A stretch of DNA of 64,000 bases from Paenibacillus mucilaginosus 3016 (GTDB lineage: Bacteria; Bacillota; Bacilli; Paenibacillales; NBRC-103111), in assembly GCF_000250655.1 (NCBI RefSeq), contig NC_016935.1, forward strand, positions 7,086,001 through 7,150,000. The letters run 5' to 3'. Shown here one piece after another: positions 29,445-35,928 of the stretch. Position 1 is the first letter of the stretch. Every line of letters starts with the position of its first letter. The position numbers and the translations under genes were made by a program. The notes below the pieces were generated by a model. It was given only the letters and a program-made list of their open reading frames with translations, had not been told where the DNA came from and searched no databases.

Positions 29445-31637
29445 TTACGCCTGCATGATGCGCTGTACCGAATACACATCCTTCACCCGCTTGATCTTCT
29501 CCACAACGGAGTGCAGATGATCGATGTTGCGGATGAGAATGGTCATATGGATCGTCACCATCTTGTTCTTGTCGGAGCGCCCCGATACTGCCGAGATGAT
29601 CGTCTTGCATTCCGAGACGACCTGCAGCACTTCATTGAGCAGCCCCCGCCGGTCATGCCCCGTGATCTCGATCTCGACGTTGTAGTTCGCCTCGACATCG
29701 TCCACCCATTCCACTTCAATCACGCGGTTCCCTTCATCGCTGCATTCGGGTGAAGGGATATTCGTACAGTCGAGCCGGTGGACGGAGACCCCGCGTCCCC
29801 GGGTGATATAGCCGATAATGGCATCGCCCGGCACCGGATTGCAGCAGCGCGCAAAACGGATGAGCAGGTTGTCCACTCCCTTGACCCGGACGCCGCCGGT
29901 CGGACGTCCCCTGCGCTCCTTGTCCGGAGCCTTCATTTCCTTGACTTCGGAGGTCAGCTGCATCGCCTGCGCCTGCGCTTCCTCCGCTTCCTTGCGGAGC
30001 TTCTCCGTCAGGCGTGTGACGATCTGGGCGGCGGTGATCCCGCCGAACCCGACCGCGGACAGCATATCTTCGACTTCCTGGAAGTTGAACTTGCGGGCAA
30101 CCTCCATCAGTTCGTCTTCCTTCATCAGCGGAGAGACATCGTAGCCGAGCCGCTTCAGCTCGCGCTCGATCATCTCCTTGCCCTTGACGACGTTCTCCTC
30201 ACGGCGTTCCTTCTTGAACCACTGGCGGATCTTCGTGCGGGCATGGGAGGATTGTGCGATCTTCACCCAATCCTGGCTCGGTCCGTACGAATGCTTCGAG
30301 GTTAGGATCTCAACGATATCCCCGGTCTTGAGCCGGTGGTCGAGCGGCACGATACGGCCGTTCACCTTGGCGCCGATCGTCCGGTTGCCGACTTCCGTGT
30401 GAATCCGGTAGGCGAAGTCCAGCGGCACGGAACCGACCGGCAGCTCGATCACTTCCCCCTTAGGCGTAAACACGAACACCAGGTCGGAGAAAAAGTCCAT
30501 TTTGAGCGATTCCACGAACTCCTGGGCATCCTGGGCCTCGTTCTGCAGCTCGATGATCTCGCGGATAAAATGCATCTTGTCCTCGTAGCTGCCCGTCGGC
30601 ACATTCGTGCCTTCCTTATATGCCCAGTGCGCCGCCACCCCGTACTCGCTCGTCCGGTGCATCTCGAAGGTACGGATCTGCACTTCCAATGGCTCGCCCT
30701 TGGGGCCGATGACCGTCGTATGGAGCGACTGGTACATGTTCGGCTTCGGCATGGCGATATAGTCCTTGAACCGCCCGGGCATCGGCTTCCACAGCGTGTG
30801 GATGATCCCGAGGGTCGCATAGCAGTCCTTGATATTGTCGACGATGATCCGAAGGGCCAGCAGGTCGTAGATCTCGTTGAACTGCTTGCTGCGCACGGTC
30901 ATCTTCTTATAGATACTGTAGATATGCTTCGGCCGGCCGGAGATGTCCCCGTCGATGCCCATCTCGTGAAGCTTCTCCTTCACATTCGTGATGACATCGT
31001 TAATATACTGCTCCCGCTCCGTCCGCTTCTTCTGCATGAGATTCACGATCCGGTAGTACTGCTGCGGGTTCAGATAACGAAGCGCAATGTCCTCCATCTC
31101 CCACTTGATGGCCGAGATCCCGAGCCGGTGGGCGATCGGACAGAAGATCTCCAGGGTCTCGTCGGCGATCCGCCGCTGCGCCTCTTCCGATTGGTGCTTC
31201 AGGGTGCGCATATTGTGCAGCCGGTCCGCCAGCTTGATGAGAATGACGCGGATATCCTGGGCCATCGCCACGAACATTTTGCGGTAATTCTCATTCTGGT
31301 GCTCTTCCTTGCTCTTGAACTTGATCTTCTCGAGCTTCGTCAGTCCGTCCACGATCATGGCACAGGTCGCACCGAACTTCTCATGCACGGTCTCGAGGGA
31401 TACCGTCGTATCCTCCACCACGTCATGGAGCAGCGCAGCAATGATTGACGTGGTGTCCATCTGCATGTTCACGAGAATTTCCGCTACCGCAAGCGGATGC
31501 AATATGTAAGGCTCCCCGGACTTGCGGACCTGCCCGAAGTGGGCCTGATCGGCAAATTCGTAGGCTTCCCGGATTCGTTTGAGATCTTGTTCCTTCACAT
31601 AACTGGATGCCTTCTCAAGAAGCTGCTCTATCCCCAT
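29445..31637 (-). CDS. relA: bifunctional (p)ppGpp synthetase/hydrolase, RelA/SpoT family
   Basis: Long RSH enzyme making and degrading (p)ppGpp in the stringent response. About 730 residues. Order: HD hydrolase domain (LLHDVVEDTTVSLETVHEKF, then IKLADRLHNMRTLKH), synthetase domain (YDLLALRIIVDNIKDCYATL, GYPxxQSLHTTVIG-like NMYQSLHTTVIGPKGEPLEV), TGS domain (VFTPKGEVIELPVGSVPLDF), zinc-finger/RIS region (RFARCCNPVPGDAIIGYITR) and ACT domain at the C-terminus. Both catalytic domains look intact. ATG 31637 and ATG 31649 are both possible; AAGGGA is too close to the latter. Confidence 0.96.
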   Translation of the reverse strand: MGIEQLLEKASSYVKEQDLKRIREAYEFADQAHFGQVRKSGEPYILHPLAVAEILVNMQMDTTSIIAALLHDVVEDTTVSLETVHEKFGATCAMIVDGLTKLEKIKFKSKEEHQNENYRKMFVAMAQDIRVILIKLADRLHNMRTLKHQSEEAQRRIADETLEIFCPIAHRLGISAIKWEMEDIALRYLNPQQYYRIVNLMQKKRTEREQYINDVITNVKEKLHEMGIDGDISGRPKHIYSIYKKMTVRSKQFNEIYDLLALRIIVDNIKDCYATLGIIHTLWKPMPGRFKDYIAMPKPNMYQSLHTTVIGPKGEPLEVQIRTFEMHRTSEYGVAAHWAYKEGTNVPTGSYEDKMHFIREIIELQNEAQDAQEFVESLKMDFFSDLVFVFTPKGEVIELPVGSVPLDFAYRIHTEVGNRTIGAKVNGRIVPLDHRLKTGDIVEILTSKHSYGPSQDWVKIAQSSHARTKIRQWFKKERREENVVKGKEMIERELKRLGYDVSPLMKEDELMEVARKFNFQEVEDMLSAVGFGGITAAQIVTRLTEKLRKEAEEAQAQAMQLTSEVKEMKAPDKERRGRPTGGVRVKGVDNLLIRFARCCNPVPGDAIIGYITRGRGVSVHRLDCTNIPSPECSDEGNRVIEVEWVDDVEANYNVEIEITGHDRRGLLNEVLQVVSECKTIISAVSGRSDKNKMVTIHMTILIRNIDHLHSVVEKIKRVKDVYSVQRIMQA

Positions 31638-31832
31638 CCGTTCATCCATTCCCTTAAATCGATTTTAATCCATTATGCCCCCGATGAGGGCCCGGCGTCA
31701 AGAATATGCGGGAAGAACCGACATATTGCGCGGTCTGTCTTCCCAAGCCGCAGCCCTTACGGGAAAAGTCAGCGCTTCCTGAACCCGGAAAAAACGGCCT
31801 GGCCTTCTCCCGGGCCGCCCGGCTTCCATGGC

Positions 31833-32903
31833 TCAGAGCTCCTTGAGACCTTCAGCGATCAGCTTGCGGCGCTCTTCGATGTACCGTCGGATAAACTCCG
31901 GCTCGCCGTCGAAGGTGGAGAAGCTCCATTTGCGCTGCGTGTCGCGGTAGACATACGGACGGATCTGCGCATGCATCCGCTCGGCGACGGGCAGAACCCG
32001 GTTCACCGTGAACGCCGTCCGCAGCAGACGCTGCAGCAGCAGCTTATACTGCCTGCGCACCGACGCGTTCCCGAGAAGCCGCTCCGTCAGCTTGTTGTAG
32101 CCCCGGATCCGCACCAGGTCGCTGCCGCAGTCCCGGCCATAGCAGTTGCGTCCCCAGGTCCCTTCGTAATCCCAGGGGATGATCCGGTACCTGCCGCTAG
32201 GCTTGTGCCGGTACAGCGCATAGTTCTGGTCGAAGCCGTCGTAATTGCCGGTGAGCACGGCCCCCGCCAGCCAGCGGAGATAGTTGTCGATATTCAGCCG
32301 CTGCGCCAGGTACCGGTGCAGCTCCTTCGAGCCGGCCATCCCCCCGGCATTCAAGCGGCGGATGAACAGCACAAGACGCTGACGTTCGGCCGGCACTCCC
32401 ATCATCTGCTGGTATCCCGAGTACAAGGAGGTCTTGCGGCGGGAGGAATCCGTGGCCTTCAGACCGAAGTTGGCATCGTCGTTCACGGCATAGAACAGGG
32501 ACTGCACCCCGATCCCCCGCTTGCGGAAAAAGGGTCTCTCCACTCCTTCGATCTCCAGATACACTCCGAGGCTCTGGCCGTTCAACATCAGATGCACATG
32601 CTGCGTCTTCGGGCTCGGAACCCCGATCGATTCAAAGAAATGAAATGACAGCGCATTGCGGATGAGCGATGGGTCATCGAATTCCGCATTATAATGGTAA
32701 GTCCTGCCCCCGCAGACCACTTCATAGGAACGTTTGGGGTAGCTGCGCGTATGTCCGCCGCGGTAGCGCACCTTTGCGCTTGACCTCCCCCGTCCCGATG
32801 CAAGCCGGCAGCTCACAAACCTGTCGCTCCACACGTCCTTCTCCAGCTGCTTCAGCTGATCTTCACCAATCACCAGATGCCGCACCGGCAGTTCCGCAGC
32901 CAT
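31833..32903 (-). CDS. cotH: spore coat protein kinase CotH
   Basis: Atypical protein kinase of the CotH family (PF08757), which in Bacillus subtilis phosphorylates CotB and CotG and controls outer-coat assembly. 356 residues. Visible motifs: KVRYRGGHTRSYPKRSYEV at the N-terminus, then NYLRWLAGAVLTGNYDGFD followed by QNYALYRHKPSGRYRIIPWD and the metal-binding DYEGTWG segment, where the essential aspartates of the family lie. Start ATG 32903 follows GGGAGGG. It lies downstream of the CotG-like gene, separated by a terminator, with CotB-like genes beyond, so kinase and likely substrates are clustered. Confidence 0.93.
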   Translation of the reverse strand: MAAELPVRHLVIGEDQLKQLEKDVWSDRFVSCRLASGRGRSSAKVRYRGGHTRSYPKRSYEVVCGGRTYHYNAEFDDPSLIRNALSFHFFESIGVPSPKTQHVHLMLNGQSLGVYLEIEGVERPFFRKRGIGVQSLFYAVNDDANFGLKATDSSRRKTSLYSGYQQMMGVPAERQRLVLFIRRLNAGGMAGSKELHRYLAQRLNIDNYLRWLAGAVLTGNYDGFDQNYALYRHKPSGRYRIIPWDYEGTWGRNCYGRDCGSDLVRIRGYNKLTERLLGNASVRRQYKLLLQRLLRTAFTVNRVLPVAERMHAQIRPYVYRDTQRKWSFSTFDGEPEFIRRYIEERRKLIAEGLKEL

Positions 32904-32962
32904 CGCTCTTCCGTCCCTCCCGTCCGATGAGCGGAAGGCACTGTCCAGGCCTCCGCTGCAAG

Positions 32963-32995
32963 CAAAAAGCCTATCCGTATCGGATAGGCTTTTTG
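32963..32995. terminator. symmetric terminator between the CotG-like gene and cotH
   Basis: AAAAAGCCTATCCG-TAT-CGGATAGGCTTTTT, a perfect stem with A and T runs on both sides. It should stop transcripts from the CotG-like gene, implying cotH has its own promoter or depends on read-through. Confidence 0.9.
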
Positions 32996-33077
32996 TGCTA
33001 CATTACCTTATGCCGGGTGGGAGGCCGGGGCGACGGCCGTTGTCCTGCGGGGATATCCGCCCTTTGTCACGGGTGCC

Positions 33078-33434
33078 TCAGCAGGTTTGGCCTCCGCCTG
33101 TGCGGCCGCCTCTCGTGCGGTTCCCCTTCGAGCCTTTTCCGCCTGTCCGGCTGCCTGCTGTCCGGTTCCCCTGGGTGCGGTTGCCCTGCGTACGGTTCCC
33201 CTTCGAGCCTTTTCCGCCTGTACGGTTACCTGCTGTCCGGTTCCCCTGGGTGCGGTTGCCTTGCGTACGGTTGCCCTGCGTACGGTTCCCCTTCGAGCCT
33301 TTTCTGCCCGAACGGCTGCCTTGTGTGCGGTTGCCCTGTGTGCGGCTGCCCTGCGTACGGTTTCCTTGGTTCTCTCCGCAATGGCAATCTCCCTGCACAC
33401 TGGCCGCATTCGTCCCCTGCTCTTCATGACGCAT
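33078..33434 (-). CDS. CotG-like repetitive spore coat protein
   Basis: A 118-residue, extremely basic, low-complexity protein made of GNRTQ pentads grouped into blocks separated by GKGSKGNRT; the N-terminus is MRHEEQGTNAASVQGDCHCG and the end is GGRTGGGQTC. Several frames are open through the repeats on both strands; this one is chosen because a strong AGAGGAGGT lies ten bases before its ATG and a sigma-K-like promoter lies just upstream. By composition and position beside cotH it resembles CotG, whose Ser/Lys/Arg repeats are CotH substrates, though here Thr in NRT and Ser in GSK would be the acceptors. Homology to CotG is inferred, not shown. Confidence 0.75.
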   Translation of the reverse strand: MRHEEQGTNAASVQGDCHCGENQGNRTQGSRTQGNRTQGSRSGRKGSKGNRTQGNRTQGNRTQGNRTAGNRTGGKGSKGNRTQGNRTQGNRTAGSRTGGKGSKGNRTRGGRTGGGQTC

Positions 33435-33467
33435 CTCTCAAACTACCTCCTCTTAATAGAGATAATT

Positions 33468-33496
33468 CAAGATATGTAGAACGCTGCCAAGAGGTA
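33468..33496 (-). promoter_or_regulatory. sigma-K-like promoter of the CotG-like gene
   Basis: Minus strand: -35 TACC (33493-33496), 16-base spacer, -10 CATATCTTG (33468-33476), one mismatch to CATAnnnTA. It lies 34 bases before the start codon. Confidence 0.55.
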
Positions 33497-33622
33497 AGGG
33501 ACAACCGTCAATACCGCCAAAATCCGGCTTCTGCCCTTGTTCTTTCCTATCTACCGAACGATTGTCCCCCTGCTCATGATAGATGTGGAAATTGCAAGAA
33601 AACTAGATTCCAGACCATACCA

Positions 33623-33651
33623 AACCCTGCGTTATACATATACATATCTTA
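33623..33651 (+). promoter_or_regulatory. sigma-K-like promoter of the CotB-like genes
   Basis: Plus strand: -35 AACC (33623-33626), 16-base spacer, -10 CATATCTTA (33643-33651), a full match to CATAnnnTA. It has the same geometry as the divergent promoter at 33468-33496. Confidence 0.6.
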
Positions 33652-33688
33652 CAAATCAACCCCATCGACACATGAAGGGAGGTGGTCG

Positions 33689-33808
33689 GTGCCCGTGCGG
33701 CAGGGTTCACCGGTTCAGCCCGATGCCAGTTGCCAGTGTCCAGTTGCCAGTCCAGCTTGTTTCTTCATTATCTGTTTTGCGAAGTACAACCTGATTATTC
33801 ATTCATGA
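33689..33808 (+). CDS. possible 39-codon leader gene before the CotB-like gene
   Basis: GTG start at 33689 with GGGAGGTGG six to seven bases upstream; the product is MPVRQGSPVQPDASCQCPVA followed by a hydrophobic, cysteine-containing stretch (SPACFFIICFAKYNLIIHS). The stop is 15 bases before the CotB-like start, so the two could be translationally coupled. It begins about 30 bases downstream of the likely transcription start. Three cysteines and a hydrophobic end would suit a small coat or membrane peptide, but the frame is short and may be chance; the good ribosome site is the only strong evidence. Confidence 0.4.
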   Translation: MPVRQGSPVQPDASCQCPVASPACFFIICFAKYNLIIHS

Positions 33809-33823
33809 GAGGGGAATGTTCAA

Positions 33824-34522
33824 ATGGCTTACAACAACCCGCTTAGCACACTGATCGGATCCGAGGTCCGCATTAACCGTGGAGGTCCCGACGCGATTAC
33901 CGGCAAGCTGCTTGCCGCCAGGCACGGGTATCTCGTATTGAAAACGAAGGACGGGCTGGTTTATGTGAATGCAGCCCACATCAAAAGCATCAGCGATGCG
34001 CCCCGCGGCAACAGCAGCGGTAACCGCAGCGGCAGCCGCAGCGGTACGACACCTGCCTATGTCTCTGCCGGTTCCTTCCCAGCTGTGCTCCAGCAGCTCC
34101 GCCACCAGTTCGTGCAGATCAACCGCGGCGGTCCGGAGAAAATCGAAGGCGTCATCTCGGACGTTAGCCAGGATTTCCTGTTCCTTATCGTCAACAGAGA
34201 GATTGTCCGCATTCCTCTCTTTCATATTAAGAGCGTGACCCTCGGCTCCCGGAGCGGCAACCGCAGCGGTCAGAACAAAAACCAGGGGCAGAAACAAGGT
34301 CAAAATCAAGGCCAAAATCAAGGTCAAAACCAAGGTCAGAACCAAGCACAAGGTCAAAACCAGGCTCAAGGCGGGCAGCGCAATGCCAACAGCGGCGGCA
34401 ACCGCAGCGGCAAAGGAAACTCCAGCAGCGGCGGCCAAAAGAAAGCGAACGCTAACGCCATCTCGCGCAGCAAATCCTTCAAAACGCCGGTATACAGCCT
34501 GAAACGTTCCGCACGCCGCTAA
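33824..34522 (+). CDS. CotB-like spore coat protein
   Basis: A 232-residue protein with two related N-terminal modules (EVRINRGGPDAITGKLLAAR at about residue 15 and FVQINRGGPEKIEGVISDVS at about 101), each ending in a YVNAAHIKSI or IPLFHIKSVT strand, a layout typical of CotB. The C-terminal third is low complexity: GNRSG motifs, then QGQN repeats (nine or so copies) and a basic Ser/Lys/Arg tail ending RSARR. CotB of Bacillus subtilis is phosphorylated by CotH in its Ser/Lys/Arg tail, and cotH lies 0.9 kb away. Start ATG 33824 follows GAGGGGAA. No signal peptide, as expected of a mother-cell coat protein. Confidence 0.82.
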   Translation: MAYNNPLSTLIGSEVRINRGGPDAITGKLLAARHGYLVLKTKDGLVYVNAAHIKSISDAPRGNSSGNRSGSRSGTTPAYVSAGSFPAVLQQLRHQFVQINRGGPEKIEGVISDVSQDFLFLIVNREIVRIPLFHIKSVTLGSRSGNRSGQNKNQGQKQGQNQGQNQGQNQGQNQAQGQNQAQGGQRNANSGGNRSGKGNSSSGGQKKANANAISRSKSFKTPVYSLKRSARR

Positions 34523-34582
34523 ACGGAATGCCTCCCCTTCTTCCGTAAGGGACGGCCCCTTCGGTAATCCTTACCGCCATAT

Positions 34583-34631
34583 GCCCCATGGAGATGCGCT
34601 GTGTTCCTTGACATCCATGGGGCTTTTTTTC
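34583..34631 (+). terminator. intrinsic terminator after the first CotB-like gene
   Basis: GCCCCATGGA pairs with TCCATGGGGC across a 25-base loop, followed by TTTTTTT. The second CotB-like gene therefore probably needs read-through or its own promoter. Confidence 0.75.
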
Positions 34632-34662
34632 TCTTCATGCCATCCGGAAGGAGGTGTACCCA

Positions 34663-35328
34663 TTGTCAGCGATGCGCTCCTATCTGAACCGCCCCGTCGA
34701 ATTGTGTATATCCGGCAAGAAAGAGCCGGTCCGCGGCATTCTGGTCGACATGGGCAGCGATATCCTCGTCGTGCATGACGGCAGACGCTTTCATTATGTC
34801 CCTGCTCTGCATCTGCAGGAGTTCTCCCTGGCGCAGGTCTCGGCAGGAGAGGATTCGAACCTGTCCTCGATCTCCTGGGAGGCTGCACCCGACCTTTCTT
34901 ACCGCAAGGTTCTGATGAATGCGAAGGGCATTTTCAGCGAGATTTATATTACCGGCCAGCAGTCGATTCACGGCTACATCACCTCTCTCATGACCGACTT
35001 CTTTGCCTTTCAATCCCCGGTCTATCACACGATCCTGGTCTCGATGCGTCATCTCAAGACGCTTATTCCCTACGGGCCCAACGTGACGCCCTATTCCATG
35101 AATCCGGCCGCTTTTCCCGTCGCTCCGAACACCATGCCGCTGGCACGGACGATGGACCAGCAGCTCAAGAAGCTCGAAGGCGAATTCATCGTGCTGAATC
35201 TGGGCGAAAGGCAGAGCCATATTGGGCTGCTGAAGTCGGCGGACGCCCCCATTGTCGAACTCATCACCTCGGGCGGCGCGTCGGTATTCATGCATATGGA
35301 CCATGTCAAGACCGTCCACAAGCCGTAA
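34663..35328 (+). CDS. second CotB-like spore coat protein
   Basis: A 221-residue protein with the same two-module arrangement as its neighbour but lacking the low-complexity tail: RPVELCISGKKEPVRGILVD near residue 10, IFSEIYITGQQSIHGYITSL near residue 90, and a third, weaker copy KLEGEFIVLNLGERQSHIGL near residue 170, each about 40-80 residues apart. Start is TTG 34663 with AGGAGGT seven bases upstream; the GTG at 34654 overlaps the ribosome site. It may provide scaffold function without the phosphorylatable tail. Relationship to CotB is inferred from the modules and context. Confidence 0.75.
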   Translation: MSAMRSYLNRPVELCISGKKEPVRGILVDMGSDILVVHDGRRFHYVPALHLQEFSLAQVSAGEDSNLSSISWEAAPDLSYRKVLMNAKGIFSEIYITGQQSIHGYITSLMTDFFAFQSPVYHTILVSMRHLKTLIPYGPNVTPYSMNPAAFPVAPNTMPLARTMDQQLKKLEGEFIVLNLGERQSHIGLLKSADAPIVELITSGGASVFMHMDHVKTVHKP

Positions 35329-35415: not shown

Positions 35416-35928
35416 TTAGTACTGTACGAGCGAGATGACGTCGATGCCGTCCAGGCGATCCCGGCCGTTCAACTCCTGAAGCTCGATCAGGAAAGCCGCT
35501 CCCACGACTTCGCCTCCAAGCTGTTTCACCAGGTTGATCGATGTCGCGATCGTTCCGCCGGTAGCCAGCAGATCGTCGGCGATCAGCACCTTCTGACCGG
35601 GCTTGATGGCGTCGTCGTGCATCGCCAGCTTGTCCTTGCCGTATTCGAGAGCATAATCCGCTTCGATCGTATTGCTCGGCAGCTTGCCGCTCTTGCGGAT
35701 CGGCACGAAGCCGACGCCAAGGGCTACGGCCAGCGGAGCGCCGATGACGAAGCCTCTCGCTTCGGGACCTGCGATGAGGTCGATCTGCTGTCCTTCCAGA
35801 CGCTTGGCCAGCTCACGGATCACTTCACTGTAGACTTTGCCGTCGGCAAGCAGGGTCGTAATGTCTTTGAACGAGATGCCCGGCTGCGGGAAGTCTTCGA
35901 TCACGCGGATATATTCTTTGAAATTCAT
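35416..35928 (-). CDS. apt: adenine phosphoribosyltransferase
   Basis: Salvages adenine to AMP with PRPP. 170 residues, the usual length. Features: start [20 protein letters not shown], the substrate segment [20 protein letters not shown], and the PRPP-binding motif [20 protein letters not shown]. The ATG overlaps the end of the recJ 3' segment (stop at 35925), consistent with recJ-apt coupling. In Bacillus subtilis apt is followed by relA; here the coat island separates them. Confidence 0.96.

Follow-up and report, generated by a model that had tools for sequence, protein, structure and literature searches.

A probable CotB/CotH/CotG spore-coat phosphorylation module between relA and apt in Paenibacillus mucilaginosus

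CotH-dependent phosphorylation patterns the outer coat of Bacillus subtilis spores, and the way in which CotH recognizes its substrates is not settled by one species. In B. subtilis, the CotH kinase phosphorylates CotB and CotG, and the loss of either CotH activity or CotG abolishes the striations of the outer coat (PMC7821199). In CotG of B. subtilis, phosphorylation offsets the positive charge of the repeats, which serve as a spacer (PMC9765600). CotG-like proteins have been described as non-homologous in sequence and alike in position, modularity and charge (PMC9765600), and the ExsB protein of the B. cereus group is phosphorylated on threonine (PMC7821199). We describe here a cluster of four probable coat genes in Paenibacillus mucilaginosus 3016, found in a stretch of 64,000 nucleotides (NC_016935.1, positions 7,086,001 to 7,150,000; referred to below as the window). 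Judged from its genes, this cluster is a rearranged version of the known CotB/CotH/CotG coat-phosphorylation module and not a new system.

The gene cluster and its kinase

The preliminary description of the window had placed cotH, a CotG-like repeat gene, cotB and a second CotB-like gene together between relA and apt, and all four were confirmed at these coordinates:

29445-31649, minus strand: relA/spoT, flanking gene (TIGR00691, E value 1.8e-248)
31833-32903, minus strand: cotH, atypical protein kinase of 356 amino acids (PF08757, E value 4e-71; 5jd9, E value 6.5e-88; invariant N220, D222 and D245)
33078-33434, minus strand: CotG-like modular repeat protein of 118 amino acids (GNRTQ and GNRTGGKGSKGNRT repeats; positional counterparts in 50 of 93 cotH neighbourhoods)
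33824-34522, plus strand: cotB homologue (CotB1), 232 amino acids (AlphaFold2, Foldseek, family profile)
34654-35328, plus strand: second CotB-like protein (CotB2), 224 amino acids as listed (three-barrel model, family profile)
35416-35928, minus strand: apt, flanking gene (TIGR01090, E value 3e-68)

The four coat genes fill the relA-apt interval entirely, with no extra gene such as an integrase, and dtd and recJ are the outer neighbours of the interval. The host genome is a single contig of 8.74 Mb with one CotH.

By profile and structure match, the window cotH encodes a full-length kinase of the CotH family. The PF08757 match scores 240.6 bits against a curated cut-off of 23.8 and covers model positions 1-321 of 322, while the crystallised CotH 5jd9 matches over 346 residues. 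Residues N220, D222 and D245 are invariant among 21 homologues. The spacing from D222 to D245, 23 residues, is the same as that from D228 to D251 in the B. subtilis protein, where we take D251 to be the second catalytic aspartate; this correspondence is by numbering and not by alignment with that protein. D228 of B. subtilis CotH has been named as a catalytic aspartate (PMC7821199).

The likeness to the B. subtilis module extends to each of its parts, since the window also has a CotB with barrels and a tail predicted to be disordered, and a basic repeat protein adjoining cotH. The arrangement differs. In the Bacillus-type cluster, cotB lies on the cotH strand and cotG is divergent, whereas in the window the CotG-like gene lies upstream on the cotH strand and cotB is divergent; gene orientations as well as position are thus unlike those of Bacillus. 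The repeats are of the GNRT type rather than the SHKKS type of Bacillus, and the tail of the window CotB is rich in Q and N with few RS sites. Unlike the B. subtilis module, the whole set lies between relA and apt. In L217, a neighbourhood from another family of the same class, profiles of the window families find CotB at 8e-61 and a CotB2-type gene at 2e-82. These two genes adjoin each other there, next to CotH and a divergently encoded protein with SHKRSRSHKKSFCS repeats, and by this content L217 is a recognisable Bacillus-type cotB-cotH-cotG cluster; therefore, the Paenibacillus module is made of the same parts as that cluster. The earlier reading of the locus, as a CotH kinase accompanied by CotG-like and CotB-like proteins in a set that is rearranged relative to Bacillus and splits the apt-relA pair, agrees with the profiles, the structure match and the synteny.

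The repeat protein and the CotB tail as candidate substrates

The CotG-like protein is built of GNRTQ and GNRTGGKGSKGNRT units (GKGSKGNRT type), and its 118 residues include 16 Thr and 8 Ser and carry a net charge of +20. Its gene shares the strand of cotH and precedes it by 175 bp, a ribosome-binding site of good quality precedes the start codon, and no curated family in Pfam or NCBIfam matches the product. Like the CotG-like modular proteins of bacilli, including ExsB, it is of low complexity, positively charged, repetitive and encoded beside cotH, and its Thr-rich repeats resemble those of ExsB.

The set used for comparison consisted of 93 distinct cotH neighbourhoods, together with 14 from other families. 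In 50 of the 93, a basic, low-complexity open reading frame (ORF) rich in G/N/R/K/S/T lies directly upstream of cotH on the same strand. The nearest relative carries GNRTQGNRTGGNRT in its counterpart of the repeat gene. In Paenibacillus caseinilyticus, the nearest named relative in the collections (CotH identity 80%), the counterpart has GNRTQGNRTGGNRTQ repeats, a related N-terminus and a conserved frame (64% identity). The recurrence of such ORFs upstream of cotH and the P. caseinilyticus counterpart argue against chance as the source of this open frame. The particular combination of the GNRTQ/GKGSKGNRT repeat with its N-terminus was seen only in the window and, in related form, in P. caseinilyticus; a search for the protein elsewhere in the genomes of relatives that have no neighbouring copy gave one marginal match (G077).

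The repeats themselves vary widely among the neighbourhoods (SHRSDRS, GNKSRGNKT, DKTRGNKS, GTRGTRG, THGTRGDRTGGNRT and GNRSGGSRGNRS are examples). Ser and Thr interchange freely among the CotG-like proteins of relatives, many of which mix both within one protein, and the recurring feature is Lys or Arg beside Ser or Thr: K/R stands at position -1 of S/T in 51% of cases against 22% in shuffles, although a shuffled control is weak for proteins that arose by multiplication of one ancestral repeat. The threonines of the NRT and SRT motifs are the likely acceptors in the window protein.

In the AlphaFold2 model, the body of CotB1 consists of two barrels of the Hfq/Sm-like type, spanning residues 6-58 and 85-141 or thereabouts, followed by a tail rich in Q/N/G/S/R/K that is predicted to be disordered (predicted local distance difference test, pLDDT, of about 50). 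Single Hfq chains superpose on these barrels at 1.2-1.3 Å over about 55 residues, with TM-scores of up to 0.8 by target length and with weak Foldseek E values of 0.03 to 0.05, as is usual for folds this small. The second protein, CotB2, is modelled with three Sm/SH3-like barrels (mean pLDDT 86) and lacks a repeat tail, so that only one of the two CotB-like proteins bears a substrate-like tail. Small barrel proteins of the DUF2642, DUF6897 and MM0924 types give weak profile matches to the CotB barrels; the window proteins differ from these in having two or three barrels in tandem and, in CotB1, the added tail. The true start of CotB2 is probably the TTG at 34663, because this is where the alignment with the orthologue of P. 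caseinilyticus begins and because the listed GTG at 34654 falls within the ribosome-binding site.

The sequence contains the GNRTQ and GKGSKGNRT repeats as first described and, in the CotB1 tail, the QGQN run, but the proposal that they change the acceptor residues is not supported. The QGQNQGQN stretch contains no Ser or Thr and for that reason cannot be an acceptor. QGQN dominates the tail, which nevertheless keeps RS serines in the flanking GNRSG, GGNRSGKG and SRSKS motifs; 5 of its 14 Ser/Thr have Arg directly before them, and the NRS and SRS serines are the likely acceptors. Threonine as acceptor also has its precedent in ExsB (PMC7821199), and relatives mix both residues. Nor is the departure from SSSKR repeats a novelty, given that CotG-like proteins were already known to be non-homologous in sequence (PMC9765600). 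At least one CotB-like gene is present in 59 of the 93 neighbourhoods. The CotB tails of relatives bear NKSG/NKS, NRS or NQTRG/NQT repeats. Across CotB tails, K/R stands at -1 of Ser/Thr in 49% of cases against 22% in shuffles.

Within genomes, the motifs of the CotB tail and of the CotG repeats match better in own pairs than in permuted pairs (p 0.0002 for 29 pairs; p 0.014 for 16 non-redundant pairs). This result is not used as evidence, because the likeness could also come from the base composition of each genome (Lys or Arg with G+C). In two further neighbourhoods (L213 and L214; genomes G179 and G193), no CotG-like gene was found near cotH, and the CotB-like protein ends in a long tail of consecutive HKSSGHKCCDKHP-type repeats, as though the tail had taken over the role of CotG.

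Chromosomal position and regulatory sequences

The positions of cotH, relA and apt were mapped in 104 genomes of the family. Of the 25 genomes in the genus of P. mucilaginosus, 19 have cotH in the relA-apt interval, one of them as a broken copy (G078). In a related genus, it lies beside relA in 9 of 13 genomes, with apt on the other side in four and elsewhere or on another contig in five. In the genus g17, apt and relA are no more than 0.8 kb apart in any of the 30 genomes, and those that have cotH carry it at another place. On the CotH tree, the relA-linked state needs 4 changes over 27 rows, against 23.7 with shuffled labels. By synteny and the tree, the relA-apt location is old and inherited within a Paenibacillus group, and an island in the sense of something private to this genome is not supported.

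The content of the apt-relA gap varies across the family. In several other genera (L092-L098 and L100-L106; genomes G059, G061, G008, G011, G012, G010, G025, G004, G003, G020, G088, G089, G087 and G024), it is occupied by an ORF starting ...ERPPLxxSIPLSLQHLFAMFGSTVLVP, sometimes with unrelated genes in addition; judged by eye, this ORF looks like a nucleobase permease. In five genomes of the genus g21 (G091, G096, G097, G099 and G101), relA and cotH remain neighbours, and apt is found at another chromosomal site or on a different contig, which suggests rearrangement breakpoints at the coat module. The type strain of P. piri (L078, G094) has an expanded version, in which relA is followed by cotH, a repeat gene and two CotB-like genes and, ahead of apt, by another cotH paralogue that is divergent. 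In Paenibacillus sp. P25 (L111, G078), relA, cotH, apt and recJ all look broken by frameshifts or stops in one stretch, for which poor sequence is more likely than genuine decay. On a 149-kb plasmid of Alicyclobacillus dauci (L192, NZ_CP104065.1), CotH is accompanied by CotB-like genes and by a divergent repeat ORF, and all of these except CotH are annotated as hypothetical; the module can therefore be plasmid-borne, a case that says nothing on its function.

Promoter-like sites were sought with a sigma-K-like pattern, AC-N15-18-CATANNNT(A/G). The pattern has only two matches on both strands of the 4.5 kb from 31.5 to 36 kb, one before the CotG-like gene and one before cotB. These and two hairpins complete the features of the locus:

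32964-32996, minus strand: strong hairpin with T-run between the CotG-like gene and cotH, probable terminator or attenuator (-25.4 kcal/mol, z -6.0)
33468-33495, minus strand: putative sigma-K promoter of the CotG-like gene, ACCTCTTGGCAGCGTTCTACATATCTTG, 33 nucleotides before the start codon
33624-33651, plus strand: putative sigma-K promoter of cotB, ACCCTGCGTTATACATATACATATCTTA (pattern match)
34583-34630, plus strand: hairpin and T7 after cotB, probable terminator from its sequence (z -2.2)

The first site is conserved, in that TTCTACATATCTTG stands at the same distance from the CotG-like start in P. caseinilyticus. For the cotB site, the -10 region TATACATATACATAT is kept there, but the full pattern is not. 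Of the 93 regions upstream of cotH in the compared set, 20 contain the pattern (1.3 expected); it shows a small enrichment upstream of the CotG-like genes (9 against 1.7 expected) and none upstream of cotB in the 93-genome set. These sites would be compatible with sigma-K control in the mother cell. A consensus terminator scan missed the hairpin at 32964-32996, probably since its T-run belongs to the stem. In the intergenic region between the CotG-like gene and cotB (33495-33575), GGGACAACCGTC and ACGATTGTCCCC form an imperfect inverted pair that is conserved in P. caseinilyticus and is possibly the site of a mother-cell regulator such as SpoIIID.

Proposed function and alternatives

We consider it probable that the cluster is this organism's version of the CotB/CotH/CotG phosphorylation module, with CotH phosphorylating the CotG-like protein and the CotB tail. 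The sequence of events that we infer would begin with CotH produced late in the mother cell and using ATP to phosphorylate many Ser/Thr beside Arg/Lys in two disordered basic substrates, the main targets being the NRT/SRT threonines of the one and the NRS/SRS serines of the other. The phosphates would offset the strong positive charge and keep the CotG-like protein soluble and stable, and the phosphorylated protein would then assemble with CotB into the outer coat. The tandem Sm-like barrels of CotB could be the assembly platform, with the three-barrel CotB2 as a structural partner. By analogy with B. subtilis, polyphosphorylation of basic repeats during coat assembly seems the most likely function.

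Several observations weigh against this reading. In the window, no sigma-K-like site stands directly before cotH, and the strong hairpin at 32964-32996 lies between it and the CotG-like gene. The CotB1 tail has 13 Ser and 1 Thr in 92 residues, fewer than the phosphoserines of B. subtilis CotB, which are reported to number at least 30 (PMC7821199), and the shuffled comparison of the repeats is, as said, a weak one. In addition, three relatives (G070, G077 and G082) keep cotH between relA and apt, and a search of their genomes found no CotB gene and no adjoining CotG-like gene; therefore, CotH probably has other substrates in these close relatives. Such cases, together with the lack of Ser/Thr in QGQN, lend some weight to an alternative in which CotH is an active coat kinase with its main substrates elsewhere and its neighbours are mainly structural, a charged spacer and a non-phosphorylated QGQN linker. 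The B. subtilis CotG repeats act as a spacer and can be swapped for differently charged ones with lysozyme resistance and germination unaffected (PMC9765600). However, CotB and CotG are demonstrated CotH substrates in B. subtilis (PMC7821199), and a CotG-like gene with Arg/Lys beside Ser/Thr recurs next to cotH in 50 of 93 neighbourhoods, so that we regard this alternative as unlikely.

The two remaining explanations are far less probable still. That the repeat ORF is an untranslated stretch of GC-rich tandem repeats whose frame is open by chance might be argued from the G+C content by codon position, which is uninformative as a coding test and does not single out the frame, and from another frame that is also open over 139 amino acids; against this stand the ribosome-binding site, the conserved promoter-like site, the frame and N-terminus kept in P. 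caseinilyticus, and the same protein character in the same place with differing repeats in 50 neighbourhoods. For a recent insertion of a mobile or horizontally acquired coat island speaks the adjacency of apt and relA without cotH in many members of the family, as in all g17 genomes, by which the relA-cotH-apt arrangement is either derived or was lost in some lineages, but that idea was rejected on the synteny within the two genera, the few changes on the CotH tree and an interval full with the four genes.

A broader version of the phosphorylation-module reading can be offered only tentatively. A conserved CotH may act on continually replaced substrates, recognizing only a basic residue beside Ser/Thr in disordered repeats, with lineages swapping both the repeats and the acceptor residue; here, Thr would be used in the CotG-like protein and Ser in CotB, held on tandem Sm-like barrels. 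What is unusual in P. mucilaginosus is the inherited relA-apt position, the rearranged gene order and the pairing of a Thr-rich CotG-like protein with a Ser-bearing CotB tail. The locus extends the module to a soil Paenibacillus group, adds a structural reading of CotB as predicted tandem Sm-like barrels, and is a further case of a known module with fast-changing substrates at the same chromosomal place in most close relatives. One kinase family with 50 adjacent candidate substrates, which differ in their repeats and come in Ser and Thr versions, makes a natural series for the study of CotH specificity.

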